DNA of 64,000 bases from a virus. Of the stretch, positions 1-64,000 are shown one piece after another; position 1 is the first letter of the stretch; each line of letters begins with the position of its first letter. The translations under genes were made by a program, and so were the position numbers. The stretch covers positions 1-64,000 of the IMG/VR virus record IMGVR_UViG_3300042880_000321. One strand, written 5' to 3'. The notes beneath the pieces are model-generated. The model was not told where the DNA came from, ran no database searches, and saw nothing but the letters and a program-made list of their open reading frames with translations.

Positions 1-12
1 CTCATTCATGGT

Positions 13-561
13 TTATTCGTCGCTTTCATCTGGGATAGCTTGTTTGAATGCTGCAATTTCATCGGCGTCAGCTTCTCGGAGCCATTCATAATGGCCGGTG
101 TTTACAATGCCGGTTCCGGAACTATTGGATTGATATCGGTATCCCTCGATCAACTCCAATTGATGTTTTCCGATATAGTCCATTGCGGATGCAATGGCGG
201 CTTCTTTCGTCGGGAATTCAAGAAAGAATTTCCAGAATCCGTCAATTTCCACATAGTCACCAAGACAGCGCCGGTCCCCAGTGCATTTCAGCACGGATTC
301 CGATACCATTTGGCCGTGTTCGTCATTATCTGAACATATATACCACGGTTCGCCATTGTCCGGCGCGGACCAATGTTTAGCTTGCATGAAGTAGAATCCA
401 TACGCTTCGGGGATTTCGTCGGGCTCGATTGTTCGGGATTCGTCAATTGCGATTTCGTAAGCACTCGATTCGCCGTCACATCGGATGACAAGCGACGTTC
501 CGAATTCATGGCCATAGGCAAAGTATCGATCGTAAAACGATCCATCATCGTAGAATTTCAT
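13..561 (-). CDS. hypothetical protein, 182 aa
   Basis: Unrecognised. An upstream in-frame ATG exists, but ATG at 561 is chosen because TTGGAG lies just before it, the same Shine-Dalgarno context used by the first gene of this cluster at 1253. The N-terminus is MKFYDDGSFYDRYF; the protein is acidic, soluble and has no membrane segment. It is the last gene of a four-gene minus-strand run and follows 590-859 after a short gap. A further ATG on the minus strand at position 9 suggests the run continues beyond the left edge. Confidence 0.7.
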   Translation of the reverse strand: MKFYDDGSFYDRYFAYGHEFGTSLVIRCDGESSAYEIAIDESRTIEPDEIPEAYGFYFMQAKHWSAPDNGEPWYICSDNDEHGQMVSESVLKCTGDRRCLGDYVEIDGFWKFFLEFPTKEAAIASAMDYIGKHQLELIEGYRYQSNSSGTGIVNTGHYEWLREADADEIAAFKQAIPDESDE

Positions 562-589
562 GGTATTTCTCCAATTGGTTAAGGTAAAA

Positions 590-859
590 CTATACAATCC
601 AGTCAGCACAAGCGCCGACGCATCCATCCCGCCAACAATAGTCGGAGCCTGCCCAACTATCAACGGGCATTCCTTGGATTCCAAGGGCTTTCTTTATTCG
701 TCGGCTGATGGTCTTTTCGCTAGCGGTCGTCGGCACGACGACCGTGCGACGGCGCACCCAACAGTAGTTGCCACTCCAAGAGCCCCCTTCGTTCCAAAGG
801 TCAGTGCATTCGGCACGAATGAAGGCTATCGGGGTACTTTGTTCGCAGATCATTATCAT
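590..859 (-). CDS. hypothetical small phage protein, 89 aa
   Basis: Function unknown. The start is set by an ATGA overlap with the stop of the gene at 856-1053. The middle is rich in Trp and Gly (GGSWSGNYCWVRRR), followed by a basic helix-like stretch SRRIKKALGIQG and several Cys. The coding sequence carries a perfect 9-bp inverted repeat at 724-744 (loop GCA). It is third in the left minus-strand cluster. Confidence 0.6.
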   Translation of the reverse strand: MIMICEQSTPIAFIRAECTDLWNEGGSWSGNYCWVRRRTVVVPTTASEKTISRRIKKALGIQGMPVDSWAGSDYCWRDGCVGACADWIV

Positions 860-1053
860 GTTGATTCTCCGTTTGTGATATCGTCGAGTAATCGGAATAA
901 ATTCGATTGTTTAGCCAATAGCCTATCGAATTTCGCTTGCATCTTCGGCTCTAGATCACCATTGTGATCGGTATAGAACTGTTCTATTTCTTCCATTTCT
1001 CGGCTGACCATTGTCAGCCTATGCTCTATTTCGAATGCGTCTAGTTCGATCAT
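856..1053 (-). CDS. hypothetical protein, 65 aa
   Basis: Small acidic, helical protein with heptad-like spacing of Leu, Ile and Met, so a short coiled coil is possible. Start and stop overlap the neighbours on both sides (1050-1253 upstream, 590-859 downstream) by 4 nt, which is good evidence that this is a translated operon member. No family recognised. Confidence 0.65.
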   Translation of the reverse strand: MIELDAFEIEHRLTMVSREMEEIEQFYTDHNGDLEPKMQAKFDRLLAKQSNLFRLLDDITNGEST

Positions 1054-1253: not shown

Positions 1254-1279
1254 TTCAAATTCTCCAATTGGAGTAAACG

Positions 1280-2310: not shown

Positions 2311-2357
2311 GAAATAAAATAACGAGTCAACCCCTGCCCTAGTGGCCACATGGCATA

Positions 2358-7903: not shown

Positions 7904-9397
7904 ATGACACCGACTTTCCAATTCTTAACGAATCTATACGACCGTGCATTGGCAGGCATTCCCGTCATGGACGGGATCGACGGCACTCGGGATCTGGATA
8001 AAGAGTGTGGCTACCAGAACTTCATCCAAGACAACGACTACATGCGTATGTTTCGGCGAGGCGATGTCGCCTCCCGTGTTGTGACGCTGGAACCGGATGA
8101 GTGCTGGAAAGAATACCCCAAGATATACGAGACGGAAGAGGAACGAGATACCGAGTTCGAAAAGGCGGTAGACCGCCTAGAAGCCAAAACCCGGTTTTTC
8201 TCTTACCTTCACCGTTTAGACCGAATTAGCGGTATTCTCCGTTACGGCGTGATGCTCATCGGCATGGACGATGGGGCATCCCTGGAAATACCGGCACCCG
8301 GCTACGACGAGCATAAAATGCTCGACGGTCCTGGCACCGACACAAATATTATCTACTACCGAGTCTTCACAGAGGCTTCCGTCAGCGTATTGGAGTGGGA
8401 GACAGATCCTACCAATCCACGGTTCAATCATCCTCTGTATTACAACCTGAACTTCAACGAAGTTACCAATTCAAGCAACACGTCATACACGACGGAGAGA
8501 GTCCACTGGTCCCGTATCCTCCATGCCGCAGACAATTTAATTGAGTCTGAAATCCTCGGCCAGCCGAGAATGGAGAATGTCTGGAACCGGTTGATGGACT
8601 TACGCAAAGTCGCCGGAGGTTCCGGCGAGATGTTCTGGAAGGGCGGCTTCCCTGGATTATCGTTCGAAGTCGATCCAAAGCACGGTGAATTCTCTACCGA
8701 AGAGCGGGACGCTCTCCGCGAAGACGTGAAGATGTATGCAGAGGGACTTCAGCGGTACATTACTATGGTCGGCGTATCGGTCAAGTCTATTGCTCCGCAG
8801 ATTGCGGACCCTACGAGCCACACTGACAATCTTCTAAAACTGATCGCCATGACGAAGGCGATCCCTATGCAGACTTTTATGGGCTCCCAGCAAGGGCAGC
8901 TAGATAGTCCACAGGACACGATCACATGGCGTGAGCGCATTATGCTCCGAAAGGAGCGATACGTCACACCATCTTTGATCCGGCCATTCATCGACCGGCT
9001 AATCCAGATCGGTGCTTTACCTACTCCAGTACCCCAAGAAGATCAACCGTTGCCTTACATGGTCAAGTGGGAGCCGATGGCTCCTCTTAACATCATGGAA
9101 CAGGCCAAGGTCGCTAAGGACTTCTCCGAAGCCTTAGCCCGGTATGCTACTGCCGGTGCCGAAGCCATTATTCCGCGAGCGGAATTCTTAGGCAAGGTAA
9201 TGGGATACTCTGGTCAACAGGTACAGGCGATAGAGTCGGCTCCGCCGACTGAGCATTCGTTGGTATTCAAGCAACTTGAGGGCATGACCGGCTCCGCCGG
9301 TGGAAATGCCCCTAGTTCTATACCAAAGGTGCCGAAACCAGGAAATCGCAAAGACCCCGGAAAAACACCTACCAACACCGTACAGAGGGCAAAATGA
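7904..9397 (+). CDS. portal protein (DUF1073-like)
   Basis: 497 aa. Forms the dodecameric ring at the capsid vertex through which DNA enters and leaves. Recognised from the phage_gp-like/DUF1073 pattern: an N-terminal region (RGDVASRVVTLEPDECWKEYP), a central stem region and the late motif QLDSPQDTITWRERIMLRKERY. Lies directly downstream of terL in standard head-gene order. The C-terminal 40 residues are Pro/Lys-rich and probably disordered. ATGA overlap with the next gene. Confidence 0.85.
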   Translation: MTPTFQFLTNLYDRALAGIPVMDGIDGTRDLDKECGYQNFIQDNDYMRMFRRGDVASRVVTLEPDECWKEYPKIYETEEERDTEFEKAVDRLEAKTRFFSYLHRLDRISGILRYGVMLIGMDDGASLEIPAPGYDEHKMLDGPGTDTNIIYYRVFTEASVSVLEWETDPTNPRFNHPLYYNLNFNEVTNSSNTSYTTERVHWSRILHAADNLIESEILGQPRMENVWNRLMDLRKVAGGSGEMFWKGGFPGLSFEVDPKHGEFSTEERDALREDVKMYAEGLQRYITMVGVSVKSIAPQIADPTSHTDNLLKLIAMTKAIPMQTFMGSQQGQLDSPQDTITWRERIMLRKERYVTPSLIRPFIDRLIQIGALPTPVPQEDQPLPYMVKWEPMAPLNIMEQAKVAKDFSEALARYATAGAEAIIPRAEFLGKVMGYSGQQVQAIESAPPTEHSLVFKQLEGMTGSAGGNAPSSIPKVPKPGNRKDPGKTPTNTVQRAK

Positions 9398-12598: not shown

Positions 12599-12632
12599 TC
12601 AGTAGTTGAAAGTTGACCAGTTTTCAATCGAA

Positions 12633-24031: not shown

Positions 24032-26504
24032 AGCGGATCGCCTGCTATTAGAAAATTTACTTAGACAAGATGGCGCTGCGCCTCCTACTCGTCCACGCGG
24101 CGATAGCGAGATAGAGGTAGCGGTAGACGAGAACGAATACTGGGCAAAGCCGCCTGCTGGTTCCGGTATTCCGGGTGCCGTGTCTGTCGGAGGCACAGTG
24201 ACGCCCTCCGGAGTCTATTGCGCCATCTACAAGCGGAGACTAGGCGAACCGAATCTAGTTCAGATGAAGTACCCGGACAATACTCCGGTACTTCGCCCCG
24301 TCTACAACTATTCTCCTGTCGGTGTTATGGATATGTCTCCCATATCCCAACACAACGACGGGACTTGGGTTGTAGGAGCTACTCCGGTACGCCCATCCCG
24401 CAACTGCGGCTGTTCGGGCTACGGAGTTTGGGTCGCCAACTCTAATTTGATTTGGGAATGGCCTACCGGTCAGTGCGGTGACGCTACGACTACTGCCGCA
24501 CCCGGAACTACGGCAGCACCGTCTTCAACAACAACGACTACTAGCCTTCCTGTTCCTACGACGCCTAGTTCGTATTGCCAAGACTATCGGTGCATGCTGG
24601 TATGCGGCACACCGTCGCCGCCTACGGCGGCCCCTACGACCACAGGAAGCGGAACAACCAGCGAAGCCCCTCCGACTACTACATTCGCTCCCGGATTGAT
24701 CTACTACTTAGCGTCAGGAGCATCCTGTCCTGGTGGCTGTACCTGCTACGGTTTAGGAGATCCTTGTTGGGAAGAAGCGGCGGAAGTGTTATCTGTCTGC
24801 GGCGGAGTCATTACTACGCTTCCTCCGACTACCTGGAATCCGTCCGATACTGCCTGCCAGTGGGCGGTAACGGCTATCGGAACTATCCCGCCGCTCACGC
24901 GGCGATACGCCCATAAGATGCCGGATGAGGCATGGGCACTATGCGGCCCGACGCTCACATCCTACGGTGAGATCTATCCGCTCGGGTTCGATCAAGCCGG
25001 CTACCAGAAGCACAATAATCAAGATAAAGTAGGTATCTACCAAACCGGTTACGTCTTGATGGCAGCGAAACACAGTGCCGTCACCGACAAGAAGCTAATC
25101 TACGCCATGTCCTATTCAGGACAAACGGCTAGTTGGTCAGGTAGCCCATACATCATCACAGATGCCGCCACCGGCACTTACCGAGTCTATTGGGAATCCA
25201 CAGGCGAATCTTTACGGCCCATCGGGCACCATGTGCCTCCGGTATGGCTACCCCAAAGCCCATCCGCCGACTACCTCAAAAGTGTTGGGATCACGCAAAT
25301 CAATTCATCCGTCTACGCCTTTGACGCCAGCTTCGCAGGCGAAGGGCGATACGGCGATGAGGTATTAGCGGAAGGGTTCCTACAGACGCCGGTGCTTACT
25401 CAGCCGCAGTTAGCGAGACACGCTACCGTGTCGAGCCCAGGTAATTGCGGCTTCGTGCGTCCTGATTTCTGTCCTACTGCCGCCGGTGAATGCTGGGTAG
25501 GTCCGTGTGCTCCCGGCGCTAACCACCTGACTCCTACCGATCAGATTTGTTTCCTAGATAAGTGGCCTAGAGGTACGACTACTGGCGGTCCTTACTTAAA
25601 TCCATGCGTAGACGTAGACGGTAATATTTGCAACTGCCCTACGACCTTCCCGCCCGCTGCTACGTCGGCGTGTCCGCCGACTACTTCCCTCGGGCCGGTG
25701 CCGTGTGCCGGTTACTGTGAGTACCTAAGTGACGGTATCCGATGGAACTTGACGAAGCCGGGATGCTCTAGTGAGCTTTCGTGGTGTGGGTGCGCTCAGC
25801 CTAGCTGCGAAGTCGCAGCACCTAATTCTAAAACTTACACCCTGTGCTACGATACCAGGACACCGACTACCTCTGCCCCGACGTGCAAATGTTGCACGCC
25901 GACAACCACTATCGGTCCTACCTGCTCCCATTCGCTCTGTCATTACGAAGTATCCGCAGGTAAATGGACGCTAGTTACGGCCAAAGGCACCTGTCCGCCT
26001 GAATGCCCTTGCCCTGAACCGGAAACCCTGTTACCGCCAATCCACTCTTGTAGCAAACTAAAGCTGAGGTGCGGACCCGCACCAGATTACCGGGAAATCA
26101 AAGTCGATTTCATCGACTGGATAGAGGAAACCGACGCTAAGTCGCCTTTCTTCGGTAAGAAGAAAGCACGCGGGACCGTATTCTGGGCGACCAATGTGAA
26201 GTTGCTTGGCAAGACGGTAACTATGTACGATCATTGGTGTATCCTAGATTTACCTAGCGATGATCTAGTAAATTTCAGAATGATTGCATCGTGGGGAGTC
26301 ACCGAATCTACAGCGTGTAACGCTGCCCCTGGCGATCCGACTCCGTTTCACTGGTCGCTAACTGACCGATGCTGTGACGCATCGCCAGAAGCAGCGGCGA
26401 CATATGATGGAGGAAGTCCTGGTGACTCTATGATCGCCGGCCCAGACGGCGGTGCTCCTGATTCCGCTATGGACGGAGATAATATCAACGGGGGAAGCCC
26501 ATGA
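24009..26504 (+). CDS. large tail protein with Thr/Pro linkers and Cys-rich modules
   Basis: 831 aa. Modules are joined by Thr/Pro/Ala/Ser-rich linkers (for example around residues 155-190, 205-230, 545-560 and 615-645) and contain many Cys in CxC and CxxC spacing, suggesting small disulfide or metal-bound domains. The C-terminus carries a Gly/Asp motif (TYDGGSPGD, DGGAPDSAMDGDNING) shared with 17180-17647. Probably a tail-tip or fibre protein. The linkers resemble O-glycosylated mucin-like segments; glycosylation is inferred. Confidence 0.6.
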   Translation: MKTYRLSEADRLLLENLLRQDGAAPPTRPRGDSEIEVAVDENEYWAKPPAGSGIPGAVSVGGTVTPSGVYCAIYKRRLGEPNLVQMKYPDNTPVLRPVYNYSPVGVMDMSPISQHNDGTWVVGATPVRPSRNCGCSGYGVWVANSNLIWEWPTGQCGDATTTAAPGTTAAPSSTTTTTSLPVPTTPSSYCQDYRCMLVCGTPSPPTAAPTTTGSGTTSEAPPTTTFAPGLIYYLASGASCPGGCTCYGLGDPCWEEAAEVLSVCGGVITTLPPTTWNPSDTACQWAVTAIGTIPPLTRRYAHKMPDEAWALCGPTLTSYGEIYPLGFDQAGYQKHNNQDKVGIYQTGYVLMAAKHSAVTDKKLIYAMSYSGQTASWSGSPYIITDAATGTYRVYWESTGESLRPIGHHVPPVWLPQSPSADYLKSVGITQINSSVYAFDASFAGEGRYGDEVLAEGFLQTPVLTQPQLARHATVSSPGNCGFVRPDFCPTAAGECWVGPCAPGANHLTPTDQICFLDKWPRGTTTGGPYLNPCVDVDGNICNCPTTFPPAATSACPPTTSLGPVPCAGYCEYLSDGIRWNLTKPGCSSELSWCGCAQPSCEVAAPNSKTYTLCYDTRTPTTSAPTCKCCTPTTTIGPTCSHSLCHYEVSAGKWTLVTAKGTCPPECPCPEPETLLPPIHSCSKLKLRCGPAPDYREIKVDFIDWIEETDAKSPFFGKKKARGTVFWATNVKLLGKTVTMYDHWCILDLPSDDLVNFRMIASWGVTESTACNAAPGDPTPFHWSLTDRCCDASPEAAATYDGGSPGDSMIAGPDGGAPDSAMDGDNINGGSP

Positions 26505-27102: not shown

Positions 27103-28317
27103 ATGAGCTGTAGTGGTAATTGCCTTGCATATTGGGACGGTGTCGGGTGGTCGATAGAGCTAGGCACTGAATGCGATAGTCTCTGCCAGTGTTTTCCCTC
27201 CGGCACGCCGGAGATCGGCACCTATAGTTTTCCTTGTCTAAGCACAGAGACGACGACACCGGCTCCTACGACTACACCGGCTCCCACGACGACGCCGGAG
27301 GCGACGACTACACCGGCTCCCACGACGACGCCGGAGGCGACGACTACACCGGCTCCCACGACGACGCCGGAGGCGACGACTACACCGGCTCCTACGACGA
27401 CGCCGGAGGCGACGACTACTGAGACTCCCACTACGACGCCGGAGGCGACGACTACTGAGACTCCCACTACGACGCCGGAGGCGACGACTACTGAGACTCC
27501 CACGACGACGGCTACGCCGACGACGACACCGGCTCCCACTACGACCGAAGAGCCCTGGACGACTACTTCTACAACCACGACAACAAAACCCCCGACGACG
27601 CCGGAGGCGACGACTACTGAGACTCCTACTACCCAGCCACCGACTACCCAGCCACCGACTACCCAGCCACCGACTACCCAGCCACCGACTACCCAGCCAC
27701 CGACTACACCACCGGGCGGGACTACGACTTGTGAGCCGGGCTCACAAGTCTGCGTAGCAGAACCACCAGAACCAGCATGGATCGATTTAAGCGGCGACTT
27801 TGTGCCGCCCGAACCTTTCCTATGGTGGCCGGTACTAAGTGGCCCTGCGGGTTGCACAACCCGACCGGCCTTTAGTCCTACGTTTGCTCCTGCGTGCATC
27901 GGGGATTGCCCAGAAATCCCATTAGTTCCTGGATGCTTAGACTCTCTACCCTACCAAGTAGAGAACTATTGTGACATAGAACAGACAAACACTTGTTTAG
28001 GTTTAAGTGATTTTTTCCGAGGGCATCGTTGGACGATCAACGGGTACTCAGGGAGAGGATCGACTGTCATCGGCGGCGAGGGCGGGGTCTGGGAGTCAGG
28101 CGTCATAGCCTTGACTCCTAACTGCGAGGAAGACGTAGGGGCTAATCCTATGGTTATCCGAGTATCGCGACCGGCACAAGAAATAATCCTGTCCACGGGT
28201 GAGAACTGCCACGATGTCTACGGCAACACACAAGGACCGGTCAAACTAGTATTACCCACCATCATACCCGTATGCGTCGTCCGCGATGGGACGACTTCAG
28301 GCCCATGTCCAGTCTAG
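27103..28317 (+). CDS. mucin-like Thr/Pro repeat tail protein
   Basis: 404 aa from ATG at 27103, 17 nt after the previous stop. A short Cys-containing N-terminal domain (~45 aa) is followed by about 155 residues of TTTPAPTTTPEA- and TQPPTTQPP-type repeats, then a ~200-aa Cys-containing globular domain. The layout is that of a stalk with a head. Encoded just before a glycosyltransferase. The DNA of the stalk is a true tandem repeat. An inverted repeat with 12-bp arms and 1-nt loop lies at 27726-27750. Confidence 0.65.
   Translation: MSCSGNCLAYWDGVGWSIELGTECDSLCQCFPSGTPEIGTYSFPCLSTETTTPAPTTTPAPTTTPEATTTPAPTTTPEATTTPAPTTTPEATTTPAPTTTPEATTTETPTTTPEATTTETPTTTPEATTTETPTTTATPTTTPAPTTTEEPWTTTSTTTTTKPPTTPEATTTETPTTQPPTTQPPTTQPPTTQPPTTQPPTTPPGGTTTCEPGSQVCVAEPPEPAWIDLSGDFVPPEPFLWWPVLSGPAGCTTRPAFSPTFAPACIGDCPEIPLVPGCLDSLPYQVENYCDIEQTNTCLGLSDFFRGHRWTINGYSGRGSTVIGGEGGVWESGVIALTPNCEEDVGANPMVIRVSRPAQEIILSTGENCHDVYGNTQGPVKLVLPTIIPVCVVRDGTTSGPCPV
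27250..27710 (+). repeat. in-frame tandem repeats coding the Thr/Pro stalk
   Basis: A 36-bp unit coding ATTTPAPTTTPE and its variant ATTTETPTTTPE recurs about seven times (27250-27530), later joined by at least five copies of a 15-bp unit coding TQPPT (about 27630-27705). Codons for Thr vary between ACG, ACT, ACC and ACA. The copy number is probably unstable between isolates. Confidence 0.85.
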
Positions 28318-28673
28318 ATGATTACGTTCGCGGTAAACTAGGAAACCGAGCTAGGGTATCCGAAGAGATTTATGTTGAGTCTCCGGCACCGGCTTCGCCG
28401 GTGATGGGGGAACTTGGGCCGGTGCTGTGGAGAGAGTTATTTCTGGCTGTGTTTACACAGCAGGAATTCGAGGCTTGGAAATCGCGCGTACCTCGTTACG
28501 GCTGTGCGTGCTCTAGCTTTTTAGGTGTTTGGCTAAAGTTAAACCGGCCTACGTTTCCGTTACCTTTCTCTTTTAAGTGGGCATTAAAAAACGCGGTAAA
28601 CCAGAAGCTCGGTCAGCGGATGCTGACCTTGGAAGCGGCACAAGAATACTGGTCAACCCAAACATTGACGTAG
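28305..28673 (+). CDS. hypothetical protein, 122 aa
   Basis: The reading frame opens at 28272; ATG at 28305 is preferred for its shorter overlap (13 nt) with the previous gene, but no good ribosome-binding site settles it. Contains CACSSFLGVWLKLNRPTFPLPFSFKWALKNAVNQKLG, a basic-aromatic block. Between tail protein and glycosyltransferase genes; function unknown. Confidence 0.55.
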   Translation: MSSLDDYVRGKLGNRARVSEEIYVESPAPASPVMGELGPVLWRELFLAVFTQQEFEAWKSRVPRYGCACSSFLGVWLKLNRPTFPLPFSFKWALKNAVNQKLGQRMLTLEAAQEYWSTQTLT

Positions 28674-35495: not shown

Positions 35496-36713
35496 TTACT
35501 CCGCAGTAAATCCGTCAATTTTAGTAAAACAACCGGCAGGATTTGCACCTGCGAATTTAGTCTTGTCGATCTGCCTAATGCTTCCGGCTTCGGTTGTTGG
35601 AACCCACCCGCACCGTTCACACGGTGCCGGTTTACTTAATTCCCTGACCGATTCCTCGGTCTTCCGAATCCGGTTGTCTAAATCACCATAGGAAACCCCC
35701 CGGATCGTTTCGACGATCCCTTTAAGCACCGAAATCTTTTGTTTGGATGGCATTACTATAGCGTCCAATCCGGCCAACGTATCCAGAATTTGGCGATTTT
35801 TCGACATAATTTGGATGCCGGCTTCCTGGTGATCGGAAGCAATGACAGCTAATCTATCTCGATAGCTTCGCACCCCGATAAACCCCTCTAGCTTCGCGAT
35901 TCTCGCGTCCAAAAAGGGCAGTGAGTCAAAGGCCGCCTGGGCGGCCAGGATCGATTCTAGCCCCTGTTTTGTGGCTTTACGGGCCTCTACTGCTGCTGTA
36001 TATGCTCTGATGGAATCTAGGCACTGAATCTTGGCGTTTAGGAGCCGTATCGACCACGCATAAGTCTCGCATTCGGTATTCGCTGTTGCCAAATCGGCAC
36101 GCCGATTACTTAGCTCCGACTCCCGTTTCGCCAAATCCTGTAATTGCTTTAGCAATTCCTGCTTCCGATCTAGGTTTTGGTACGGCAGCAGGTCAGTCTT
36201 GCATCGGATTAGCTTATGTTGTTCGCTGTCAATTAGAGTTCCTAATTTGGCAGACTGCGTCCGGAGCCAACTAATCGACTTGTCGATGTCGTCGAGGGCG
36301 ACGATGCGGTTTATTTCACGAGCTAACTGGCCGCCGGTCAACGCCAACAGGAATACGGAATCCATCTGACTTTGGAAATTGACTTCCGTTAGCATTAGCC
36401 TATCTGATACTGCTTTCGGCTGCTGCTTGGCACAGGCTAGGAATTTTTCCTGTCCTACCTTGTAGCCGTATTCCTTGGCGTTCTTGAACCGGATAACCCC
36501 TCCCTGGGGCGTCAAGACGCCCACTTGGAGCGAGGTTTCGCCGTGGGTGACTAATCCGCTTGCGGATTCATGCAAAGCGATAAACCTCAAAGCACGAATA
36601 ATAGCCGATTTCCCGGTATCGGAGGCACCGACCACTACGTTAAGTCCTGGGTTTACCGTCAGCAACAAATCCCGGTGAGCCTGGAAATTGACTAGCTTGA
36701 TCTGGCGAATCAT
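35496..36713 (-). CDS. SbcC/Rad50-like ATPase, N-terminal half with zinc-hook-like end
   Basis: 405 aa. Begins with the Rad50/SMC N-lobe (IRQIKLVNFQAHRDLLLTV) and Walker A GASDTGKS (29-36), then a long coiled coil. CERC at 365-368 resembles the CxxC of a zinc hook; the protein ends ~37 residues later instead of turning back into a second arm. No Walker B or signature. The C-lobe is 2.2 kb away at 32750-33334. T4 gp46 and SbcC carry both in one chain. Confidence 0.75.
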   Translation of the reverse strand: MIRQIKLVNFQAHRDLLLTVNPGLNVVVGASDTGKSAIIRALRFIALHESASGLVTHGETSLQVGVLTPQGGVIRFKNAKEYGYKVGQEKFLACAKQQPKAVSDRLMLTEVNFQSQMDSVFLLALTGGQLAREINRIVALDDIDKSISWLRTQSAKLGTLIDSEQHKLIRCKTDLLPYQNLDRKQELLKQLQDLAKRESELSNRRADLATANTECETYAWSIRLLNAKIQCLDSIRAYTAAVEARKATKQGLESILAAQAAFDSLPFLDARIAKLEGFIGVRSYRDRLAVIASDHQEAGIQIMSKNRQILDTLAGLDAIVMPSKQKISVLKGIVETIRGVSYGDLDNRIRKTEESVRELSKPAPCERCGWVPTTEAGSIRQIDKTKFAGANPAGCFTKIDGFTAE

Positions 36714-37930
36714 AGGATTTCCCCATATTGGTAGTAGCTCTGTTTCGGTAGGTTCCGTGTCCAGAAGGCTTTTTGGAGCCCCGCTTCGTACATCTGCAAG
36801 ATTCCCAGATCCAATTCGGCTAGGGAGTCGATGCCGTTGTACAGCATCAACTCCCGGCGGTTGGCCAAGTGTACCTTGTTCAGGCCGTAGGTGTCAGAGT
36901 CCTCGAAATACTTATCTACGTTGTGGGCGTAAAACGCCTGTCCCAGGCGAGCAAACGCCTGAAACTTCAAACCGGCTACGCCCGGTTGCGGGTCGTGCAT
37001 GTGGGCAGCGATCACGTTATCCCAAACCCAGTTCTTAACCGTTACCCCGTATTTCGTTCTCGACCATCGGTCTTCGAACTTCAAGTTAGCCGCTATCTTC
37101 CGGCAGTCGGAAGTCAAGTACGCCTTCCAGGCGTCTACTAAGGCATCCGTCATACTGAATGCTACGCACCTAGTCTCGTCTCCGACGAGCCATGCTACCG
37201 AAGCCGTATAGACTTTGGAAGCCTGCCTCTCCGGCTTCAAGCTATTGGTTTCGTAGTCGAATGCCGTAAGCGGCGATAGGCTCGCCTCGGCGAGCAGCTC
37301 TTTGATCTCGGCTATCGACTCTGGCATCTGAACCATCTTGGCGTAGTCGGCTATGTGGTCGCCGTAAGGGCGACCCTCAGAATTAAACGCCTTTAGCATT
37401 TGGCGGGTATGGTAGATTTCGCTGACGGCTGGATTCTTACCTAACGCTATTCTGCCAATAGGGAATACCCAGGCATTCAGTTCCTTGCTAGGAATCCCTT
37501 GCCAAAACCATCGATCTGGCATCTCGGCATTCTGATCCCATAGCCAATGGATGACGGATTTCAATGCCGTCTTCCCCCAGATCAATACCTTCTCCGGTTG
37601 CAGGCGTTTGATCTCAGAGATTAGTAGCGGTTGGCAATGTTTCCAGGGCTCCTCTCCGACTGTGTCGGATTCGGAATAGCAGGCTTGGGCCGGAACGATC
37701 ACTAATTCGCGTAGCGAATGTCCGATCTTTCGCAGGTTGCCTTCTATCCGTTCGTATTGTGCTGGTGAGATGTTGCGGTCGGCACTAGGTTTATCGACCA
37801 CTATGACGGCTTTAGCCGTCCCTGGTCTGGCTTTCTGCATCCCGTGGGTGCATTTGCGGAGCAGGCCACATGCTCCGCAGGCTGGGGCTATCGGTTTCGA
37901 TTTGGTGTGTTGGGTGAAGAATGTGAACAT
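36710..37930 (-). CDS. UDG-like domain fused to 3'-5' exonuclease (split polymerase part 1)
   Basis: 406 aa. Residues ~15-185 resemble the uracil-DNA glycosylase-like N-domain of SPO1-type polymerases, with CGACGLLRKC (Cys18, 21, 27) for a possible Fe-S cluster. From ~215 a DnaQ-like exonuclease: Exo I FDYET (Asp225, Glu227), Exo II NLKFED (282-287), Exo III YNGID (364-368). No polymerase palm. The palm is encoded at 46401-47798. Proofreading in trans is inferred. Coupled to the Rad50-like gene by 4 nt. Confidence 0.8.
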   Translation of the reverse strand: MFTFFTQHTKSKPIAPACGACGLLRKCTHGMQKARPGTAKAVIVVDKPSADRNISPAQYERIEGNLRKIGHSLRELVIVPAQACYSESDTVGEEPWKHCQPLLISEIKRLQPEKVLIWGKTALKSVIHWLWDQNAEMPDRWFWQGIPSKELNAWVFPIGRIALGKNPAVSEIYHTRQMLKAFNSEGRPYGDHIADYAKMVQMPESIAEIKELLAEASLSPLTAFDYETNSLKPERQASKVYTASVAWLVGDETRCVAFSMTDALVDAWKAYLTSDCRKIAANLKFEDRWSRTKYGVTVKNWVWDNVIAAHMHDPQPGVAGLKFQAFARLGQAFYAHNVDKYFEDSDTYGLNKVHLANRRELMLYNGIDSLAELDLGILQMYEAGLQKAFWTRNLPKQSYYQYGEIL

Positions 37931-45818: not shown

Positions 45819-46404
45819 ACTCTCTCCAAAACAAATAGGCATCAATTACTCGTTCTAGTTCCGCTTCTAAGTCTAGAAGCGTACCGTCGTTCCGTATAAT
45901 GTAGTCGGCTTCCTTAGCCGGGTCTATAGCTACCTCGGATTCGTGTGCCGGGTCAGCAGGCTGTTCTCGCGTGCTTTGCACGCATATCAGCAGGCTGTCG
46001 GGTTGTGCTCGAAGGAAGCATACTTCGTTCGGAAAACGTATGCCCTGGATCGCTGTCCTTTCATCTAGTCGCATTCGGGTATCCATTATCTTTAACCAGC
46101 AATCTTCGCCGTGGAAACGGCGACCGCATTCGGTGCCCAGGAGCCGGAGATAACGGCGAACGTCATCTGAATGACGTTTGACGTAATCGACCCCGAACAC
46201 TGACACTAATGTATTGTATTCCGCCGCCGCATCGGAGCGAAAGCCAATGACTTTTAGGACAGGGTTCAATATAGCTAGTTGCTCGTATACCGGATCACTG
46301 AAGCCCCGAACGGTGAAGTTGTATTTCTTATGCAGGATCTTGCAACACTCGTCTTTTCCTGCATTCCGGTTACCGCAGAATCCGATTACTTTGGGTAGGT
46401 TCAT
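45811..46404 (-). CDS. deoxynucleoside monophosphate kinase
   Basis: 197 aa. P-loop GNRNAGKDE near the start, then the lid-like region and VSVFGVDYVKRH, as in T4 gp1-type dNMP kinases. Raises dNTP supply from dNMPs. Overlaps polymerase and clamp-loader genes by a few nt. Confidence 0.78.
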   Translation of the reverse strand: MNLPKVIGFCGNRNAGKDECCKILHKKYNFTVRGFSDPVYEQLAILNPVLKVIGFRSDAAAEYNTLVSVFGVDYVKRHSDDVRRYLRLLGTECGRRFHGEDCWLKIMDTRMRLDERTAIQGIRFPNEVCFLRAQPDSLLICVQSTREQPADPAHESEVAIDPAKEADYIIRNDGTLLDLEAELERVIDAYLFWREYA

Positions 46405-47798
46405 ATCTCTTTCCCGGTGTAGGCTACTTTGTCGCTCCAGCTAACGTCGCTGACTTCTACTTCTACCTTTAGATCCAGAATCAACCAAGGCCATTTTTTC
46501 CTGAGCTTAGTTGTCATAATCTCGCTGGCCATGCCAACGTATTCATGCAACTCTGCTCTCGGCACTAGGGCCAAGAGCGAATCGTGGATCTCCATAAACG
46601 GACGCGATAGCATCTTCCTCTCCTCAATCTCCTTCTGGATATCGATGATGGATTGGAGTAGACAGTGAAAACTGCTGCCCTGAACCGGGGCATTGATAAT
46701 GAAATTCCGTGTCTCTACGCCCCGCCAAAGGAATCCGGTCAAGTTGTAAAAGTACCCCTTAGCCAGATACTCCCGATACCAGTCTTTCTTCCACTGTGCA
46801 TACGTCCGATACCGTTTGCCCCAGAAGTCGTCTTCGACCGACTTGATATGCGAGACGAAGGTGTCACTGTCCATGTTAGCCACCCATTTCTGTTCGCCTT
46901 CGTCGAACTCAATGCCCAGTCGCTTGATGCCCACAGACGAGAGATGCTCCAGCATCCCTGTCTTCCCTGCCGTCTTCCATAACCTCCTAGCCACATCAAC
47001 GTAATAATTGCCGTAGAACCACCCGAACACTGCATCTCCTTTAGCTGCGGTACGCAGCGTTTTGGCTAATGCCTTGTTCTCGGCGGCCCAGTTATCATCA
47101 TATCTGAAGCACTGCTTCGCGGTAGCCGAATGCATATCGAAACCACTTTCGAGGTTATCGATCATCGTTGTGTCTTTGTGGTAGCAGGCAGCTACGTGGA
47201 CTTCTAGAGCTGAGTAGTCGATTTCGACTAAGTACCACCCTTCTGGGGGGCATACGCATCCCTTGACGTATCGCGTAACTGACTTGTTTCTGGACGGTAG
47301 GTTGTTGAGGTTCGGGCTATCCGCCGAACCTCTGAATGATTTCACGTTGTGTAGGTTTAGGAACCCATGCACCCGCCCCTTAACGCAATCGCGTTCTAGG
47401 GCATCGAGGTAGGTTCCTTTCAGCTTGTAGAGTTTTTGTAACTGCAAAAACTCAGCGACGTAGTCGGAGTCGAGAAGTAGCAATGCATCCTCATCGAGAA
47501 TGTATTTCTTCGACTTCTTCGACTTCTTAGCTCCCGGTAGCTTTAGATGGTCGTATAAAACCCATCCTAGTTGATCTCTGGAATTCAGATTGCATTCGGC
47601 ACCGTATTTCCTCTGCTGCGTCTCGAAAATCGAGTGCTTACGGAGCTTGGACTCTCTATCCCGTATCTCAGCCTGGACTTCGCGTTGGGCTACAGCGAGC
47701 TTGTTTGTGTCTACTGGAAGCCCTTCCGATTCCATCTTCGACAAGGCGATTACGCCTTGATGGAACAGTTTGCTAGCCGAACGTGTTGCAGGTTTCAT
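46401..47798 (-). CDS. DNA polymerase family A, polymerase domain (split part 2)
   Basis: 465 aa. Contains only thumb, fingers and palm: SADSPNLNNLPSR, motif A VEIDYSALEVH (Asp194), motif B region RTAAKGDAVFGWFYG (249-262; usually R..K...FG..YG), motif C EIHDS (His405, Asp406). No 5' nuclease or proofreading domain. These are at 40601 and 36710. Coupled by ATGA to the next gene. Confidence 0.88.
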   Translation of the reverse strand: MKPATRSASKLFHQGVIALSKMESEGLPVDTNKLAVAQREVQAEIRDRESKLRKHSIFETQQRKYGAECNLNSRDQLGWVLYDHLKLPGAKKSKKSKKYILDEDALLLLDSDYVAEFLQLQKLYKLKGTYLDALERDCVKGRVHGFLNLHNVKSFRGSADSPNLNNLPSRNKSVTRYVKGCVCPPEGWYLVEIDYSALEVHVAACYHKDTTMIDNLESGFDMHSATAKQCFRYDDNWAAENKALAKTLRTAAKGDAVFGWFYGNYYVDVARRLWKTAGKTGMLEHLSSVGIKRLGIEFDEGEQKWVANMDSDTFVSHIKSVEDDFWGKRYRTYAQWKKDWYREYLAKGYFYNLTGFLWRGVETRNFIINAPVQGSSFHCLLQSIIDIQKEIEERKMLSRPFMEIHDSLLALVPRAELHEYVGMASEIMTTKLRKKWPWLILDLKVEVEVSDVSWSDKVAYTGKEI

Positions 47799-49330: not shown

Positions 49331-49360
49331 CGATGACTCCTTGATAGTCGTTGTGTTCAG

Positions 49361-50810: not shown

Positions 50811-51677
50811 TTATTCACCGAATACAAACTTTCTGAGCTTCCTGACTTCCGCTTCTGATGCTTCCCCTGGGTCCGCAGCATCTAATTCTATCCGCACCGT
50901 TTCGCCAGGAAACACGGCTAGCTGTTCAGCTAGAACCTTAGCCCTAGCCTGTGCCTGCGGACTGCTATCAAAAACAATAACCCGTTTCCAGACGCGAGCA
51001 ATTTCAGCTAGCTGAAATTGCGTTACCGCTAGCCCGAACGTGGCTACCGCTCCCCGACCGACGCGAATCGCGTCCAGCGGACCCTCCACTACTATAGCCG
51101 TATCCCGTATGTACTGGTTGCCGAAAAGCAAATGTTTTTCATCAAAACATTTCTGATAGGCTTGGGCCGTTTGGTATCGCGGCTCCTGGCCGCACGCGGC
51201 CCTAGCCGTCCACGATACCGGCCTACGGTTCAAGTAGACCGGAATGAATGCTCGCATCGGGTAATCGGAGAACGGACCCGTCGCCTGGATGCCCCAATAC
51301 TTCTCTAGGTAGCCTAGATTGAAGCCACGTCCTCGGAGATAGTCTGCAACTGCCGGTACTTCGGCTATCGGCATTAAGTTAGTCGGGGGCGTGTAACGCC
51401 CGAGGGATTTGGGGGTTTCTTGTTGGACGTAGGCTCGGTCACCGAGCAGTTCGTTAATCGCAGACCACGGGGCATCCGTAAGCTCCTTTAGGAGCTTACG
51501 GATGTTCCAGTTGCCGCAGGTATAGCAGTTTGCCCAGCTTAAATCGTCCTTGATGCCGAGATGGTAATTTTCATTCGTACATCGGCCACATCGCTGTATT
51601 TGCGTCCAGCCAGATCTTGAATGTTTGTCGGTTTTCGACCAAGGGACCGAGAATCGGTCGAGGAAATCGGTTAGCAT
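50811..51677 (-). CDS. DNA primase (zinc finger plus TOPRIM)
   Basis: 288 aa. Zinc-binding start (Cys30, 33, 51, 54 in CGRC ... CYTC), an intervening region, then TOPRIM motif VVEGPLDAIR and VIVFDSS. Shorter than bacterial DnaG (~580 aa). The gene carries two of the longest internal palindromes of the window: 51473-51504 (15-bp arms) and 50998-51021 (24-bp perfect palindrome). Confidence 0.85.
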   Translation of the reverse strand: MLTDFLDRFSVPWSKTDKHSRSGWTQIQRCGRCTNENYHLGIKDDLSWANCYTCGNWNIRKLLKELTDAPWSAINELLGDRAYVQQETPKSLGRYTPPTNLMPIAEVPAVADYLRGRGFNLGYLEKYWGIQATGPFSDYPMRAFIPVYLNRRPVSWTARAACGQEPRYQTAQAYQKCFDEKHLLFGNQYIRDTAIVVEGPLDAIRVGRGAVATFGLAVTQFQLAEIARVWKRVIVFDSSPQAQARAKVLAEQLAVFPGETVRIELDAADPGEASEAEVRKLRKFVFGE

Positions 51678-56498: not shown

Positions 56499-57155
56499 AT
56501 GGCACGTAAACGACGATCTTCTGATCCAGTTGAGCAAGTTGATGAGCATCCTGTCCACGTTTCTAAGAGGCTCCGGCTCAATGGCTCGCAGGAGCGAGCG
56601 TGTGAGGCGGTAAGGGAGTACCCGGTATCTTGCTTTATCGGAAACGCAGGCCCCGGTAAGTCTTTTGTGGCCTTGTATATGGCCCGAGAACTACTACAGA
56701 ACGGCGATGCCGTTAAAGTAGTGGTAGTCAGATCGCCCTTAGAAGTCTCTAGAGGTAAGTGTGGCTACATCCCAGGCGACCTTGCCGCCAAGATGGCACC
56801 TTGGGCCGCTAGTTCTTTCGCTATCGCGAAAGAACTTGGCATCGACAAGAACTTGGAGATATTCCCGCTGTCCTTTATTCAGGGAATGACGTTTACCGAT
56901 ACGGTAGTCATCGTAGAAGAGTGCCAGTCCTTGACTTTGCCTGAGTTCGAAGCAGTCGTTACACGACTAGGACTCGGATCTACGATGATCTTTACCGGCG
57001 ACCCTCACCAAGATTTAGCCCGGAGCAACGGATTAGTTCCGTTTTTGGAGAGGATGGAAAACGTCCGAAGTGTGGCTATCGTCCGCTTCGATCCAAAAGA
57101 CAACCAACGGCATCCGGTGGTAAGGGAAATTTGCGAAGCCTTGTGGAACGATTGA
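56499..57155 (+). CDS. PhoH-like ATPase
   Basis: 218 aa. Walker A GNAGPGKS (48-55), later VEECQSLT and FTGDPHQ, with the PhoH stretch VRSPLEVSRGKCGYIPGDL. PhoH ATPases are common in phages; function not settled (RNA helicase-like). An 11-bp inverted repeat with 4-nt loop lies at 56811-56836. Confidence 0.85.
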   Translation: MARKRRSSDPVEQVDEHPVHVSKRLRLNGSQERACEAVREYPVSCFIGNAGPGKSFVALYMARELLQNGDAVKVVVVRSPLEVSRGKCGYIPGDLAAKMAPWAASSFAIAKELGIDKNLEIFPLSFIQGMTFTDTVVIVEECQSLTLPEFEAVVTRLGLGSTMIFTGDPHQDLARSNGLVPFLERMENVRSVAIVRFDPKDNQRHPVVREICEALWND

Positions 57156-57970: not shown

Positions 57971-57996
57971 AAAGACCCGCGAAAGCGGGTCTTTTT
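57971..57996 (+). terminator. intrinsic terminator between convergent blocks
   Basis: AAAGACCCGC / GCGGGTCTTT (10-bp stem, GAAA loop) then a T run (57992-57996). Ends the plus-strand unit and overlaps the stop of the convergent gene. Confidence 0.88.
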
Positions 57997-60405: not shown

Positions 60406-60411
60406 ATTTCC

Positions 60412-60474
60412 TAATGAATAAAGGGTGGAATTCATTAAAAAATTTGTAACAAATAAAGGGTGGTATTTGTTACA
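60412..60474 (-). terminator. two hairpins with the same loop; right one is a terminator
   Basis: TGTAACAAATA / TATTTGTTACA (60445-60455, 60464-60474), loop AAGGGTGG, followed on the minus strand by T6: a terminator that includes the stop of the polymerase-like gene. A second hairpin, TAATGAAT / ATTCATTA (60412-60419, 60430-60437), has nearly the same loop AAAGGGTGGA with an unrelated stem. Confidence 0.75.
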
Positions 60475-61582
60475 GGATTTTCTCTTTTAATTTCGGATTC
60501 AGGCCGAATTTACCAAATTCTTTCTGCATTGCCTTGGTAGCCCTGCCTACGTCTTTAGTCGGCAAAATGATTTCATCATGGATAGTGATGATGTTGGTCT
60601 TATCGAGATGCGGGACGACCTTCTGTATTAGCAAATCTGATTCAAATCGTTGACAACTGTGTGCCACAGTCTGGTAGCCGTTACTTTGTTTGGCGTGGGT
60701 TAGGTAAGAGGCGAAGGATGGGAAGTGTTTTTCCAGGACGTGGAACTCGTCCATCTTCTCCATTTTATGGGTTCTTTCGAACAGCATCCTAACAAAACCA
60801 TTCTTCACTTGGTCCCGTATCTCCGGCGTCACAGATAGGCCCATTAAGGCCCCTAGCTCTGCGTATAAATCGCTTTCTTGGCACAAGGCTATCCAGTGTC
60901 GTATATCCGGGCGGTCGCCGTAGGCGGACAATAAGACGGCTCCTAGACATAACGGCTGACAGGCCGTTATGTCGATGGCGGAAAGTGGGTAGGCTAGCTT
61001 GTGCTGGAGAAGGTATCGGTGTTTGAAAGCGGTGAAGTTGGAATGCCATCGACCGAAATCACAGTAGCCTGCATAGAAGTGTTGGGAGCGGATACGCTCC
61101 CAGGTATAGGCTTGCCAGAAATTGTCGAACTCGGGAGCCTCATCCGGTAATTTGAACCGGTAGAAGTCGGCTACTAACTTATTGCCGACTGCTCCATAGT
61201 CCTCGTCGAGAGGACAAGGGAGCCGAATTTTCCGTTTAAGGGTGTATAATTCAACTTCGCCGGTGCGATATTCATCGCGAAGGCGGACGGATTTCGGGAA
61301 CTTGTTGCCATCGAAGTTGGAATACCGATCATTGAAGTCGAAGACATGGGAGTAGTCAGTGGCGGCTCTGCGACGAATTTTGTCCCAGTGGCCACCGAAC
61401 AAGGACCGCCCGTGTGCTTGAGAAAATGGTATGTAGTAGCCGTAATCCCGTCTTTTTTCGCTGGTGACGGTCATCTGCATCAACTGGAAAGAGAAGCGAG
61501 CCAGTTGATCGGCAAATTCCCCGGTGAAGTTGCTTCCCTTCGGTACGGGAATATTGCAGCATTGCGTGCTTTTGGTTACCAT
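60470..61582 (-). CDS. divergent family A polymerase-like protein
   Basis: 370 aa, unlike the main polymerase. RWHSNFTAFKHRYL, then a motif A-like AIDITACQPL (Asp204), a basic helix in motif B position (RDQVKNGFVRMLFER, Lys260) and motif C-like TIHDEI (His335, Asp336). The order and spacing suggest a palm domain related to PolA or single-subunit polymerases. No exonuclease domain. Separate promoter region and terminator. Function unknown; a second polymerase or primase-polymerase is inferred. Confidence 0.55.
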   Translation of the reverse strand: MVTKSTQCCNIPVPKGSNFTGEFADQLARFSFQLMQMTVTSEKRRDYGYYIPFSQAHGRSLFGGHWDKIRRRAATDYSHVFDFNDRYSNFDGNKFPKSVRLRDEYRTGEVELYTLKRKIRLPCPLDEDYGAVGNKLVADFYRFKLPDEAPEFDNFWQAYTWERIRSQHFYAGYCDFGRWHSNFTAFKHRYLLQHKLAYPLSAIDITACQPLCLGAVLLSAYGDRPDIRHWIALCQESDLYAELGALMGLSVTPEIRDQVKNGFVRMLFERTHKMEKMDEFHVLEKHFPSFASYLTHAKQSNGYQTVAHSCQRFESDLLIQKVVPHLDKTNIITIHDEIILPTKDVGRATKAMQKEFGKFGLNPKLKEKIL

Positions 61583-62120
61583 AATTAGAATCTTGATTTA
61601 GGTTGTTTGGGAATCTGAATCGAGCTAGGAAAGCCGGCGTTGCAACACGTCGGCTTTCTGCATTTACGGGTTAAATTCTACCAGCTTTTCGTAGAGTAGC
61701 CGGTTTTCGCGTTTTGGAAAACTGTTTCGTTTACGAAATTTGAAAATTTGCTAAAGATACCCAGGCCTGTTCCAGGCCCCCCCCAACCACCAAACCTAGG
61801 AACCCTATACACTGTACCAGGTACCCAGTACCCTGCACCAGGTACCCAGTACCCTGCACCAGGTACCCAGTACCCTGTACAACACCACCTGGAAGGTATA
61901 AACCTCTCTTCCATTATGTACCCCAGACAAATTCACTTTTTGCAGATTTCCCAGGGATTACAGCACAAAAACCACTGTTTTTAGTGCAGTGGGTGGCACC
62001 ACAAAACGGGCATAAATAGGCACCCGCTAACGGGGTGCGGAACGCACCCCGGTAACCTCAAATCCCAGCACCCGGCAGCCCCTTCCAGTAGAATTACTTA
62101 TTCAACAAAAGGAACTACAG
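61583..62120. other. intergenic region between divergent genes
   Basis: No gene supported. Holds a hairpin at 61630-61657 (about 11 bp with one G-T pair, loop TGCAAC), a C-run near 61780, a 21-bp tandem repeat (61816-61878) and GGGTGCG/CGCACCC (near 62030-62050). The two divergent start sites lie at its ends; AAAGGAAC precedes ATG at 62121. Confidence 0.7.
61816..61878. repeat. 21-bp tandem repeat, three copies
   Basis: Unit ACCAGGTACCCAGTACCCTGC repeats from 61816, 61837 and 61858. Since 21 is divisible by 3, repetitive frames appear on both strands, but neither has coding support. Confidence 0.85.
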
Positions 62121-62678
62121 ATGGCAGACCGCGTAATTACCTGGGCACTATCCACGCAATATCGAAACGGATTGTACAACTCCACGTTCCGTTTTGACAT
62201 GATACAGGCGGCTTTCGACCACATGGCCAAATACTGGCAAGTCTCGTTCCCCCGCGTCTCTCGCGGGGCGAGAGTCTCCATAGTACAGGCCAACACTTCT
62301 AAAAACCCCACCTGGGCCGCTTGGACCAGCGGCAATACGATTCATATCTCCCCTACGTTCAATTTCGCACGAGATCCCAGAATTTGCGCTAAGGTCATTC
62401 TCCATGAGTTTTGCCATGCCGCCGGGGGCGGCAGTCATTCCAGTAATCCGGCAGCTTTAATGGCTCCAAATGGAGGGACTAGCGATGGATGGGTACAGGA
62501 TGATCTCCGATGGCTCCGAGCCTATAAGCTCCGTGGCGGCCTGCCGCCAGTAGGCTCGTTAAATGAATTTAGGAACGCCACGACAAAAGGACTGGCATCC
62601 GCATATGCGGATGAAGTAGAATTGGCTTTTGGCTGTAATCACTGGTCTATTTTCGATTGGTTCAAAAAAGCCCCTTAA
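62121..62678 (+). CDS. zincin metalloprotease (matrixin-like)
   Basis: 185 aa. Zinc motif HEFCHAAGGGSH (His95, Glu96, His99, His106), with a Met-turn-like ALMAPNG (Met114). No signal peptide; may act in the virion, cytoplasm or after lysis. An 18-bp perfect palindrome lies at 62596-62613. Directly followed by the GT2-sulfotransferase gene. Confidence 0.8.
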   Translation: MADRVITWALSTQYRNGLYNSTFRFDMIQAAFDHMAKYWQVSFPRVSRGARVSIVQANTSKNPTWAAWTSGNTIHISPTFNFARDPRICAKVILHEFCHAAGGGSHSSNPAALMAPNGGTSDGWVQDDLRWLRAYKLRGGLPPVGSLNEFRNATTKGLASAYADEVELAFGCNHWSIFDWFKKAP

Positions 62679-62680
62679 TT

Positions 62681-64000
62681 ATGAGCATTGCGTTTGTATC
62701 GACTTGTAAAAACCGTTGGCAGCATCTAAGAGAGACTCTTCGACAGAATCTCTTAGACAATAAACTAGAAGATACCAAGTTCGTAGTCGTTGACTACAAC
62801 TCTGCGGATGAGATGGCCTACGAGATCCACAGGGATTATCAAGACGAAATGGCCTCCGGCAAGCTGACTTACTATCGCTATTTTGGCCAGCATACTTTCC
62901 GGATGGCACATGCCAAGAACCTAGCTCACCGTCTCGGTATCCGAGAAGGAGCTAATGTTCTCTGCAACCTGGATGCAGACAACTACACAGAGACTAATTT
63001 CGATGCTTACATTCGTAATCATTTCGCTACTGATCGGAGAGTTCTTCTTTGGGCGAATATGGTCAAAGGAGTCATGCCCAAAGGCATCTCGGGGCGAATA
63101 GTTTGCTCCAAGGACGCTTTCCTCCTGGCAGGAGGCTACGATGAGAAATATTCCACCTATTCCCCTGATGACAAGGATTTCCGCGCTCGGTTGATCAGAA
63201 TGGAAAATGAGCCCATCGAGATTGACCCTACGTTCCTCAATGCCATTCGGCATACTGACAAGATGCGGTTCAAAGAATATCCAGAAGCAGCGGATTCAGA
63301 CGCCGAAGAGTTTTCCATTAGCCAAACTAATAGAGTCGTGAACAACGGCTACTTCGGTTGTGGGATGGTTCACAGGAACTTTGTGCCAGAAGCCATCGAA
63401 CTGAATCCATTGCCTACTCGCATTTTCGGCATCGGAGCCCACAAGACAGCGACCACGTCGCTGCATAATGCCTTCCAAATACTAGGCTACCCATCAGGAC
63501 ATTGGAAAAATGCACATTGGGCAAAGTCCATTTACAACCAGATCCTCCAGGAAGGACGGTCCCTGACGCTAGAAAAGTGCTATGCACTTTGCGACCTGCC
63601 GATTCCGTTCTTATTCCGACAACTTGATGTCGCCTATCCTCGCAGCAAATTCATCTTGACTACACGTCCCGAGAAGGAATGGCTAGAGTCGGTCAGAAAG
63701 CACTGGAATCCTGAATTTAATCCGCAACAAGCGTACTGGAAGAACGATCCGTTCACTAAGATCATCCATAGGGCCGTGTACGGCCAGAACCACTTCGATC
63801 CCGAAGTGATGATCCAAAAGTACCGCCAGCACAACGCAGACGTGCTAGAATACTTTAAGGATCGTCCCGACGATCTGTTGGTGATGGATATGGCAGACAC
63901 TTCAACGAGCCCTTGGGCAAAGTTATGTCCGTTTTTAGGCGTCCGGGTGCCGAATTGCCAATATCCAACTTCCAACGTAGCCCCGGAAAAACAAACGGAA
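62681..64000 (+). CDS. GT2 glycosyltransferase fused to sulfotransferase (partial, runs off window)
   Basis: ATG at 62681, two bases after the previous stop; 440 codons open to the window edge. Residues 1-~235: GT-A domain (AFVSTCKNRWQHL, VVDYNSADEM, NLDADNYT as DxD, GGYDEKYSTYSPDDKDF acceptor region). From ~245: sulfotransferase with PAPS-binding IGAHKTATTSLHNAF and later LTTRPEKEWLESV. Adds a sugar and may sulfate the same glycan. The fusion is unusual in phage. Confidence 0.82.
   Translation, partial: MSIAFVSTCKNRWQHLRETLRQNLLDNKLEDTKFVVVDYNSADEMAYEIHRDYQDEMASGKLTYYRYFGQHTFRMAHAKNLAHRLGIREGANVLCNLDADNYTETNFDAYIRNHFATDRRVLLWANMVKGVMPKGISGRIVCSKDAFLLAGGYDEKYSTYSPDDKDFRARLIRMENEPIEIDPTFLNAIRHTDKMRFKEYPEAADSDAEEFSISQTNRVVNNGYFGCGMVHRNFVPEAIELNPLPTRIFGIGAHKTATTSLHNAFQILGYPSGHWKNAHWAKSIYNQILQEGRSLTLEKCYALCDLPIPFLFRQLDVAYPRSKFILTTRPEKEWLESVRKHWNPEFNPQQAYWKNDPFTKIIHRAVYGQNHFDPEVMIQKYRQHNADVLEYFKDRPDDLLVMDMADTSTSPWAKLCPFLGVRVPNCQYPTSNVAPEKQTE

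Follow-up and report, generated by a model that had tools for sequence, protein, structure and literature searches.

What maintains hundreds of small perfect hairpins inside the genes of a phage? Hairpin-forming repeats are usually avoided or limited to regulatory DNA, whereas positions 1–64000 of the uncultivated virus record IMGVR_UViG_3300042880_000321 (IMG/VR; 68,943 bases) hold hundreds in coding sequence, under selection at the DNA level. This whole 64,000-nucleotide stretch, hereafter the window, represents a tailed phage genome with a terminase, a portal, a tape measure and a nearly full replication set. All the evidence presented here is computational, and the gene calls are mechanical open reading frames (ORFs). 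Computation shows that the hairpins are clade-specific, size-specific and genome-wide, and that they are under selection as folded DNA. A putative second polymerase of the phage, pol2, is a candidate for the protein that reads them.

A size-specific hairpin excess in one phage clade

A sequence-only reading of the window had claimed more than 100 perfect inverted repeats (IRs) with arms of at least 7 bp. We counted 237 at loops of 0–8 nt, against a Bernoulli expectation of about 35. Its random estimate of ~0.5 for arms of at least 10 bp agrees with the Bernoulli expectation of 0.55, and 16 were observed. Shuffles preserving protein and codon use, as that reading had proposed, gave 63 ± 6 arms of at least 7 bp with non-coding DNA left unchanged, and the maximum of 82 is far below the real 237. 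Eight of its nine long sites are perfect as listed, among them 27726..27750 (12-bp arm, 1-nt loop) and 51473..51504 (15-bp arm, 2-nt loop). The ninth, 52817–52850, is imperfect across its full span and holds a perfect 7-bp/3-nt hairpin at 52825–52841. Arms of at least 10 bp absent from its list include 12631–12667 (15 bp), 49360–49394 (14 bp, terminator-like), 1283–1307 (11 bp) and 43624–43648 (10 bp).

Nearly all of the excess consists of hairpins with a 6–7 bp stem and a 2–4 nt loop. Exact arms of 6/7/8 bp number 36/54/3 at loop 2, 92/59/7 at loop 3 and 40/22/8 at loop 4, against a background of ~11/5/1.5 per loop at loops 9–16. Hairpins with 5-bp arms or with loops of at least 9 nt are at or near background. 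Within ORFs alone, 281 hairpins with arms of 6–7 bp and loops of 2–4 nt were found, compared to 44.4 ± 6.1 in 300 codon-preserving shuffles (maximum 64; z = 39). Across positions 1..64000, ~290 dispersed perfect hairpins of this size occur, one per ~220 bp and a surplus of ~250 over chance, in both gene orientations and in coding and non-coding DNA. Their spacing is near random, with few closer than ~35 nt, and one-mismatch hairpins are not in excess (260 vs 243). Most hairpins do lie inside genes, as had been claimed, because most of the DNA is coding; there is no coding preference (4.53 per kb in ORFs vs 4.42 outside). Arm sequences are likewise unrelated between sites, except in a tandem array of nine 28–29 bp repeats at 2352–2609, which carry a GGCCTGC-nnn-GCAGGCC 7-3-7 hairpin with one copy degenerate. 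This array, possibly an origin-like or a high-affinity site, was excluded from the comparative statistics. In L022 (record positions 66167–68782), two very glycine-rich tail-like ORFs are almost hairpin-free (0.8 and 0.0 per kb), probably owing to their repetitive composition.

Contigs 80–98% nucleotide-identical to the window, the related phages in which the sequence-only reading had suggested repeating the count, show equal hairpin density, and hairpins are common to contigs from different records. We mapped the trait onto a 99-row tree of the replicative PolA polymerase domain (46401..47798, minus strand; 465 aa, no exonuclease domain). It is confined to one fully supported clade of 31 rows, and whole-contig counts concur with this distribution; most relatives are contig fragments. 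Stems are 6–7 bp in the window's group (clade A) and in L058/L059/L077 (B2). They are longer, typically 7–12 and up to ~15 bp, in L060–L062 (B1) and in the 42–47% identical group C. L063, for example, has 74 stems of at least 9 bp, compared to 6.0 ± 0.9 in shuffles. Thus, stem length is a lineage property. No hairpins were found in L068/L069, although these lie inside the clade, in the 68 tree rows outside it, or in six isolates: T7, lambda, N4, T4, and the phages P2559Y and PJN03, which have related terminases. In many hairpin-free far relatives (e.g. L009, L010, L012, L069), short-loop hairpins fall below the long-loop background (ratio 0.3–0.8), as if avoided.

Selection on the folded DNA

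Comparisons among close relatives are not independent, and the single p-values given here should therefore be read as descriptive. In comparison with 13 related contig sets, divergence at third codon positions is 0.056 in stems and 0.135 in control repeats with loops of 9–30 nt. Four-fold sites diverge by 0.053–0.075 in stems and by 0.15–0.19 elsewhere, and the gene-matched stem divergence ratio is 0.40 over 4042 site comparisons among non-independent relatives. In clade C, stem conservation holds in every divergence band. At 60–80% identity in this clade, paired change prevails over breakage, with 19.5% compensatory vs 8% non-pairing double changes, while control repeats show 12.9% vs 13.6%. 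Hairpin positions coincide in 21% of cases within clade C at 50–65% protein identity, where 2% is expected by chance; coincidence between clades A and C is not above chance. Thus, the hairpins are long-lived yet turning over. Gains and losses mostly alter both arms, often at third codon positions. Relatives without the 7-2-7 hairpin ATTCCGC-GA-GCGGAAT in the portal gene (9170..9185) carry clustered, mostly synonymous changes in both arms, and the non-hairpin allele of GCTGCGA-AG-TCGCAGC (7-2-7; 25804..25819) differs in both arms at third codon positions.

The loops and stems have a characteristic composition. In three lineages, 45, 38 and 48% of the triloops are G-N-A/T-N-C, compared to ~19% in control IRs. 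G-N-N-A tetraloops are enriched likewise, and A-N-G/C-N-T triloops are not raised overall, a pattern showing that the hairpins matter in their folded state. Loops of the G-N-A/G-N-N-A type stabilise small DNA hairpins, and they are stable in RNA as well. The loop-closing pair is C-G in 35–43% of cases; the 7-3-7 hairpin CACCGGC-TTC-GCCGGTG (28387..28403) has this closing pair and, on the opposite strand, a G-A-A loop. The inner stem, four pairs long in A and B2 and two in C, is GC-rich, and the outer pairs are near-neutral. Enrichment is slight for all-GC 5-bp stems (10 vs 6) and four-fold for half-GC 6-bp stems (44 vs 11), indicating that length, not stability, is selected. A stability threshold was ruled out on the same ground, short GC-rich stems being little enriched.

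Two further features were seen in clade A. Its G-N-A/G-N-N-A loops are commoner on the minus strand (96:52) regardless of gene direction, which is not the case in B2 or C. In its flanks, C is preferred 3–4 nt away from the stem on the 5′ side, and G at the corresponding distance on the 3′ side. At offset 3 this bias amounts to 36% C vs 16% G (pooled) and lies beyond unpaired positions. It is absent in clade C, and codon periodicity is a possible cause.

pol2 and the rival explanations

The genes common to hairpin-bearing whole contigs and missing in five hairpin-free ones encode a deoxynucleoside monophosphate kinase, a PhoH-like protein, HNH proteins, some structural proteins and pol2. The pol2 gene (60470..61582, minus strand) encodes 370 residues with motifs D204..Q209, R256..K260 and H335-D336-E337. 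Alignments show that its relatives conserve D204, Q209, K260 and H335-D336. The AlphaFold2 model (predicted local distance difference test score 75) matched T7 DNA polymerase, Klenow-type enzymes and polymerase theta in a Foldseek search of the PDB, at probability 1.00. From these matches, pol2 is predicted to be a second, divergent family-A-fold polymerase with no exonuclease. A profile scan of IMG/VR for pol2 returned six loci, making seven records with the window, all of which bear short- or long-type hairpins; pol2 was found in none of nine tested hairpin-free records of 40–86 kb. The barbaviruses and relatives also encode a second divergent PolA, divPolA2, for which its describers allow an RNA polymerase role (PMC11348598). 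Like divPolA2, the modeled pol2 has a family-A palm, lacks a 3′-5′ exonuclease and stands alongside a main PolA (46401–47798), and a barbavirus polymerase is among its structural matches, although weakly. It differs in having no sequence-profile match to AUR84708, the published divPolA2 representative (hhalign probability 1.7%). Two other candidates for a reader were rejected. A clade-unique replisome gene was ruled out because replication genes also occur in hairpin-free relatives. A primase that reads hairpins after loss of its zinc domain was ruled out because CxxC..CxxC is found in hairpin-bearing and hairpin-free lineages; the DnaG-like primase of the window (50811..51677, minus strand) has a zinc-binding motif.

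A natural deletion of pol2 was found in clade C. The gene order there is PhoH, pol2, a small NinG/HNH-like gene (a weak Pfam match), fam43, fam0 and fam31, with homologues of the PhoH-like gene (56499..57155, plus strand in the window) as the synteny anchor for pol2. In G012, PhoH is followed directly by fam43, fam0 and fam31, save for one small ORF. The locus is otherwise syntenic, and no remnant of pol2 or of the NinG/HNH-like gene was found. The same deletion is present in G030, a near-identical contig from another record. In the deletion lineage (L081), 71% of 98 inferred ancestral hairpins are broken, with 16% of pairs lost and a stem-to-flank ratio of 0.57. The same test on six relatives gave 11–21% of hairpins and 2–4% of pairs, with ratios of 0.08–0.28 at comparable flank divergence (L081 vs L076, Fisher p = 2e-12). 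On whole genomes, 62% of the hairpins that the other two have in common are broken in G012, compared to 17% and 29% in the reciprocal tests; flank divergence is somewhat higher in G012 (0.18 vs 0.13–0.15). In B1, long hairpins number 1.14 per kb in G010, where pol2 was not found, and 1.74 per kb in G011, which has pol2. Loss of a reader would look like this, although there is one clear case and one weak one, and a third cause could lie behind both losses. Since hairpins decay in a relative that lacks pol2, they may be sites that pol2 uses. Dependence of the hairpins on pol2 thus appears supported by these genome comparisons, but correlative.

Of the three causes put forward in the sequence-only reading (template-switch perfecting, RNA structure, and DNA structure used by the phage), only the last is supported. 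An ordinary background of base composition, intrinsic terminators or assembly artefact would fit the few long intergenic IRs that resemble terminators (49360–49394, 57971–57994). The hairpins in general lie mostly inside genes, with flanks that lack a strong T-run. They far outnumber those in codon-preserving shuffles, do not occur in relatives and isolates with a similar GC content, and are shared between contigs of different records. This explanation is refuted. Selection on mRNA structure, for regulation, stability or attenuation, could draw on the coding location of most hairpins and on loops that are also stable in RNA, but it is effectively refuted and we give it very little credence. 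G.U pairs are not preferred on the sense strand: among single-broken-pair alleles, sense-strand G.U:A.C is 36:27 in clade A and 71:90 in clade C, against 101:69 and 427:405 in controls. Furthermore, G-N-A/G-N-N-A loops are equally frequent on sense and antisense strands, and hairpin density is equal in non-coding DNA. We also consider it improbable that the hairpins are a functionless mutational product, in which template switching (perhaps by pol2) at small stable hairpins creates IRs and keeps re-perfecting them. Prokaryotic short IRs are a known case of such a process, and it has been proposed for the mitochondria of nematomorphs (PMC8794818, PMC6649704). It would suit the GC-rich inner stems with near-neutral outer pairs, which resemble nucleation plus copying, the one-arm replacements that clade C shows at 10 of 36 gain/loss sites of low divergence, and the lack of a one-mismatch excess. 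However, when mutation clusters were tested genome-wide against mirror, complement and direct controls, reverse-complement-copied clusters were no more frequent than the controls in clade A (13 vs 11 mirror and 7 complement, of 515; 0 vs 2 and 1, of 296). In clade C they were only marginally more frequent (6 vs 3 and 3, of 790; larger clusters 3 vs 0 and 0, of 472). Neutral conversion also predicts compensatory change at the neutral rate, whereas close relatives have no compensatory surplus at pairs whose two members are both third codon positions (1.2% vs ~14% single-site divergence). In addition, gains and losses mostly involve both arms. Template switching was thus rejected as the main generator: L086:6279 (left arm) and L063:15819 looked convincing, and genome-wide there is little or no excess. 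It may start some hairpins; it does not explain their upkeep.

If the phage uses the hairpins as DNA structures, the evidence points more to replication or repair by a second polymerase than to packaging. Our leading, if tentative, explanation is that the selected genome-wide hairpins, with their lineage-set size, are dispersed structural sites for pol2. Strand exposure in replication, or supercoil-driven extrusion, would let a stem with a stable loop stay folded. The folded hairpin would be recognized through its stem length, independently of sequence, and pol2 would begin primer or DNA-strand synthesis locally; here we infer the reaction, the polymer and direct binding. The model draws on the analogy of mitochondrial RNA polymerase at the OriL stem-loop and of the N4 virion RNA polymerase at its promoter hairpins. 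A bolder form is possible but more doubtful: that in this tailed-phage clade the double-stranded DNA genome, genes included, is punctuated every few hundred bases by length-coded hairpins that are sequence-independent pol2 initiation sites, with stem length co-evolving by lineage. Several points weigh against a role for pol2. The link leans mainly on one deletion lineage, and both pol2 and the need for hairpins could have disappeared with a change of host or lifestyle. Being fragments, most of the hairpin-bearing contigs are uninformative on the presence or absence of pol2. G010 keeps its hairpins apparently without pol2, and pol2 was therefore either lost recently there or is dispensable. Distant pol2 relatives (~27% identity) occur in the huge uncultured phages L175 and L176 (LR756501, LR756502; 640–735 kb), where the 40 kb surrounding these genes show no hairpin excess, and a Vibrio phage with divPolA2 has no hairpin excess. 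We found no initiation-site motif beside the hairpins in all lineages, and the NinG/HNH neighbor is not universal, being absent beside pol2 in the window and in G019. Alternatively, the hairpins could be selected structures for another DNA-level process, with an indirect tie to pol2, such as the binding of cruciforms or single-stranded DNA by a phage or host factor for replication, recombination, packaging or anti-defence. All the evidence for folded-DNA selection fits such a process without a pol2 step, as does the persistence of hairpins in G010 without detectable pol2. Different hosts would also yield lineage-specific stem lengths, and the window encodes RusA-like resolvase, SbcC-like and metallophosphoesterase genes. 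We regard this alternative as rather unlikely; it does not predict that hairpins decay in the very lineage with the pol2 deletion. If the link to pol2 is true, the genome would be marked by shape instead of sequence. The uncharacterised pol2 would then be the likely reader, with a natural deletion available for testing, and the difference in stem size between sister lineages offers a handle on the functions of a genome-wide DNA-structure signal.

Known hairpin systems and other features of the window

The promoter of the N4 virion RNA polymerase has a 7-bp stem and a 3-nt loop with a sheared G:A, and is extruded at sub-physiological superhelical density (PMC4496689). The phage hairpins are similarly small DNA hairpins with a GC-rich center, stems of 6–7 bp in the window and loops of 2–4 nt. 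The N4 combination of a G-N-A loop and GC-rich closing pairs is here a preference, not a rule (45% vs 19%; closing C-G 43%). The N4 hairpin reader also belongs to the PolA/T7 RNA polymerase superfamily. However, N4 has three promoters with conserved bases, whereas hundreds of hairpins with unrelated stems occur here on both strands and inside genes. The N4 enzyme has ~3500 residues, and the largest listed ORF of the window has 831.

At OriL, a hairpin on exposed single-stranded DNA hinders binding of the single-stranded DNA-binding protein, and POLRMT, which is T7-related, starts a primer there (PMC4256270). A folded hairpin as the start site for a PolA/T7-related polymerase would be the common element, priming by pol2 being suggested by this analogy. 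OriL is a single site with a T-stretch in the loop, whereas the hairpins here are genome-wide, with 2–4 nt loops and a lineage-specific stem length. In the mitochondria of Nematomorpha, coding palindromes are up to 284 bp long and are suspected to undergo repeat conversion (PMC6649704). Both systems contain many perfect coding IRs that are gained and lost, with imperfect ones not in excess. The phage hairpins differ in being short and of fixed size, with measurable selection and no enrichment of conversion footprints. Short perfect IRs are over-represented in prokaryotes (Ladoukakis and Eyre-Walker 2008, as cited in PMC8794818), and a survey across the tree of life found IRs concentrated in intergenic regions across domains (PMC13155455). 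Compared to such prokaryotic and viral surveys, the phage excess is much stronger, no smaller in coding than in other DNA, and size- and clade-specific.

The replication set of the window comprises the PolA polymerase domain without exonuclease, a separate gene matching the exonuclease part, a clamp, a clamp loader, a DnaB-like helicase, a primase, a RecA-like protein and a 5′-3′ exonuclease. The replicative family-A polymerase appears to be split. A gene at 36710..37930 (minus strand) matches the part of phage DNA polymerase that precedes the polymerase domain (phrog_17 552-820). By this match it is probably the 3′-5′ exonuclease of the split polymerase, and it lies ~8.5 kb from the polymerase domain at 46401–47798. 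In a close relative, the PolA gene (G005:C1:16736-18127) has an internal TGA, reflecting either an assembly error or a broken gene. An HNH endonuclease family (48641–49381 in the window, and relatives) has several copies per genome throughout the hairpin clade. A single scan of genome contigs returned only distant PolA relatives, in contigs of archaeal and Bacteroidales metagenome-assembled genomes, and phages of Bacteroidota hosts are among the best terminase matches.

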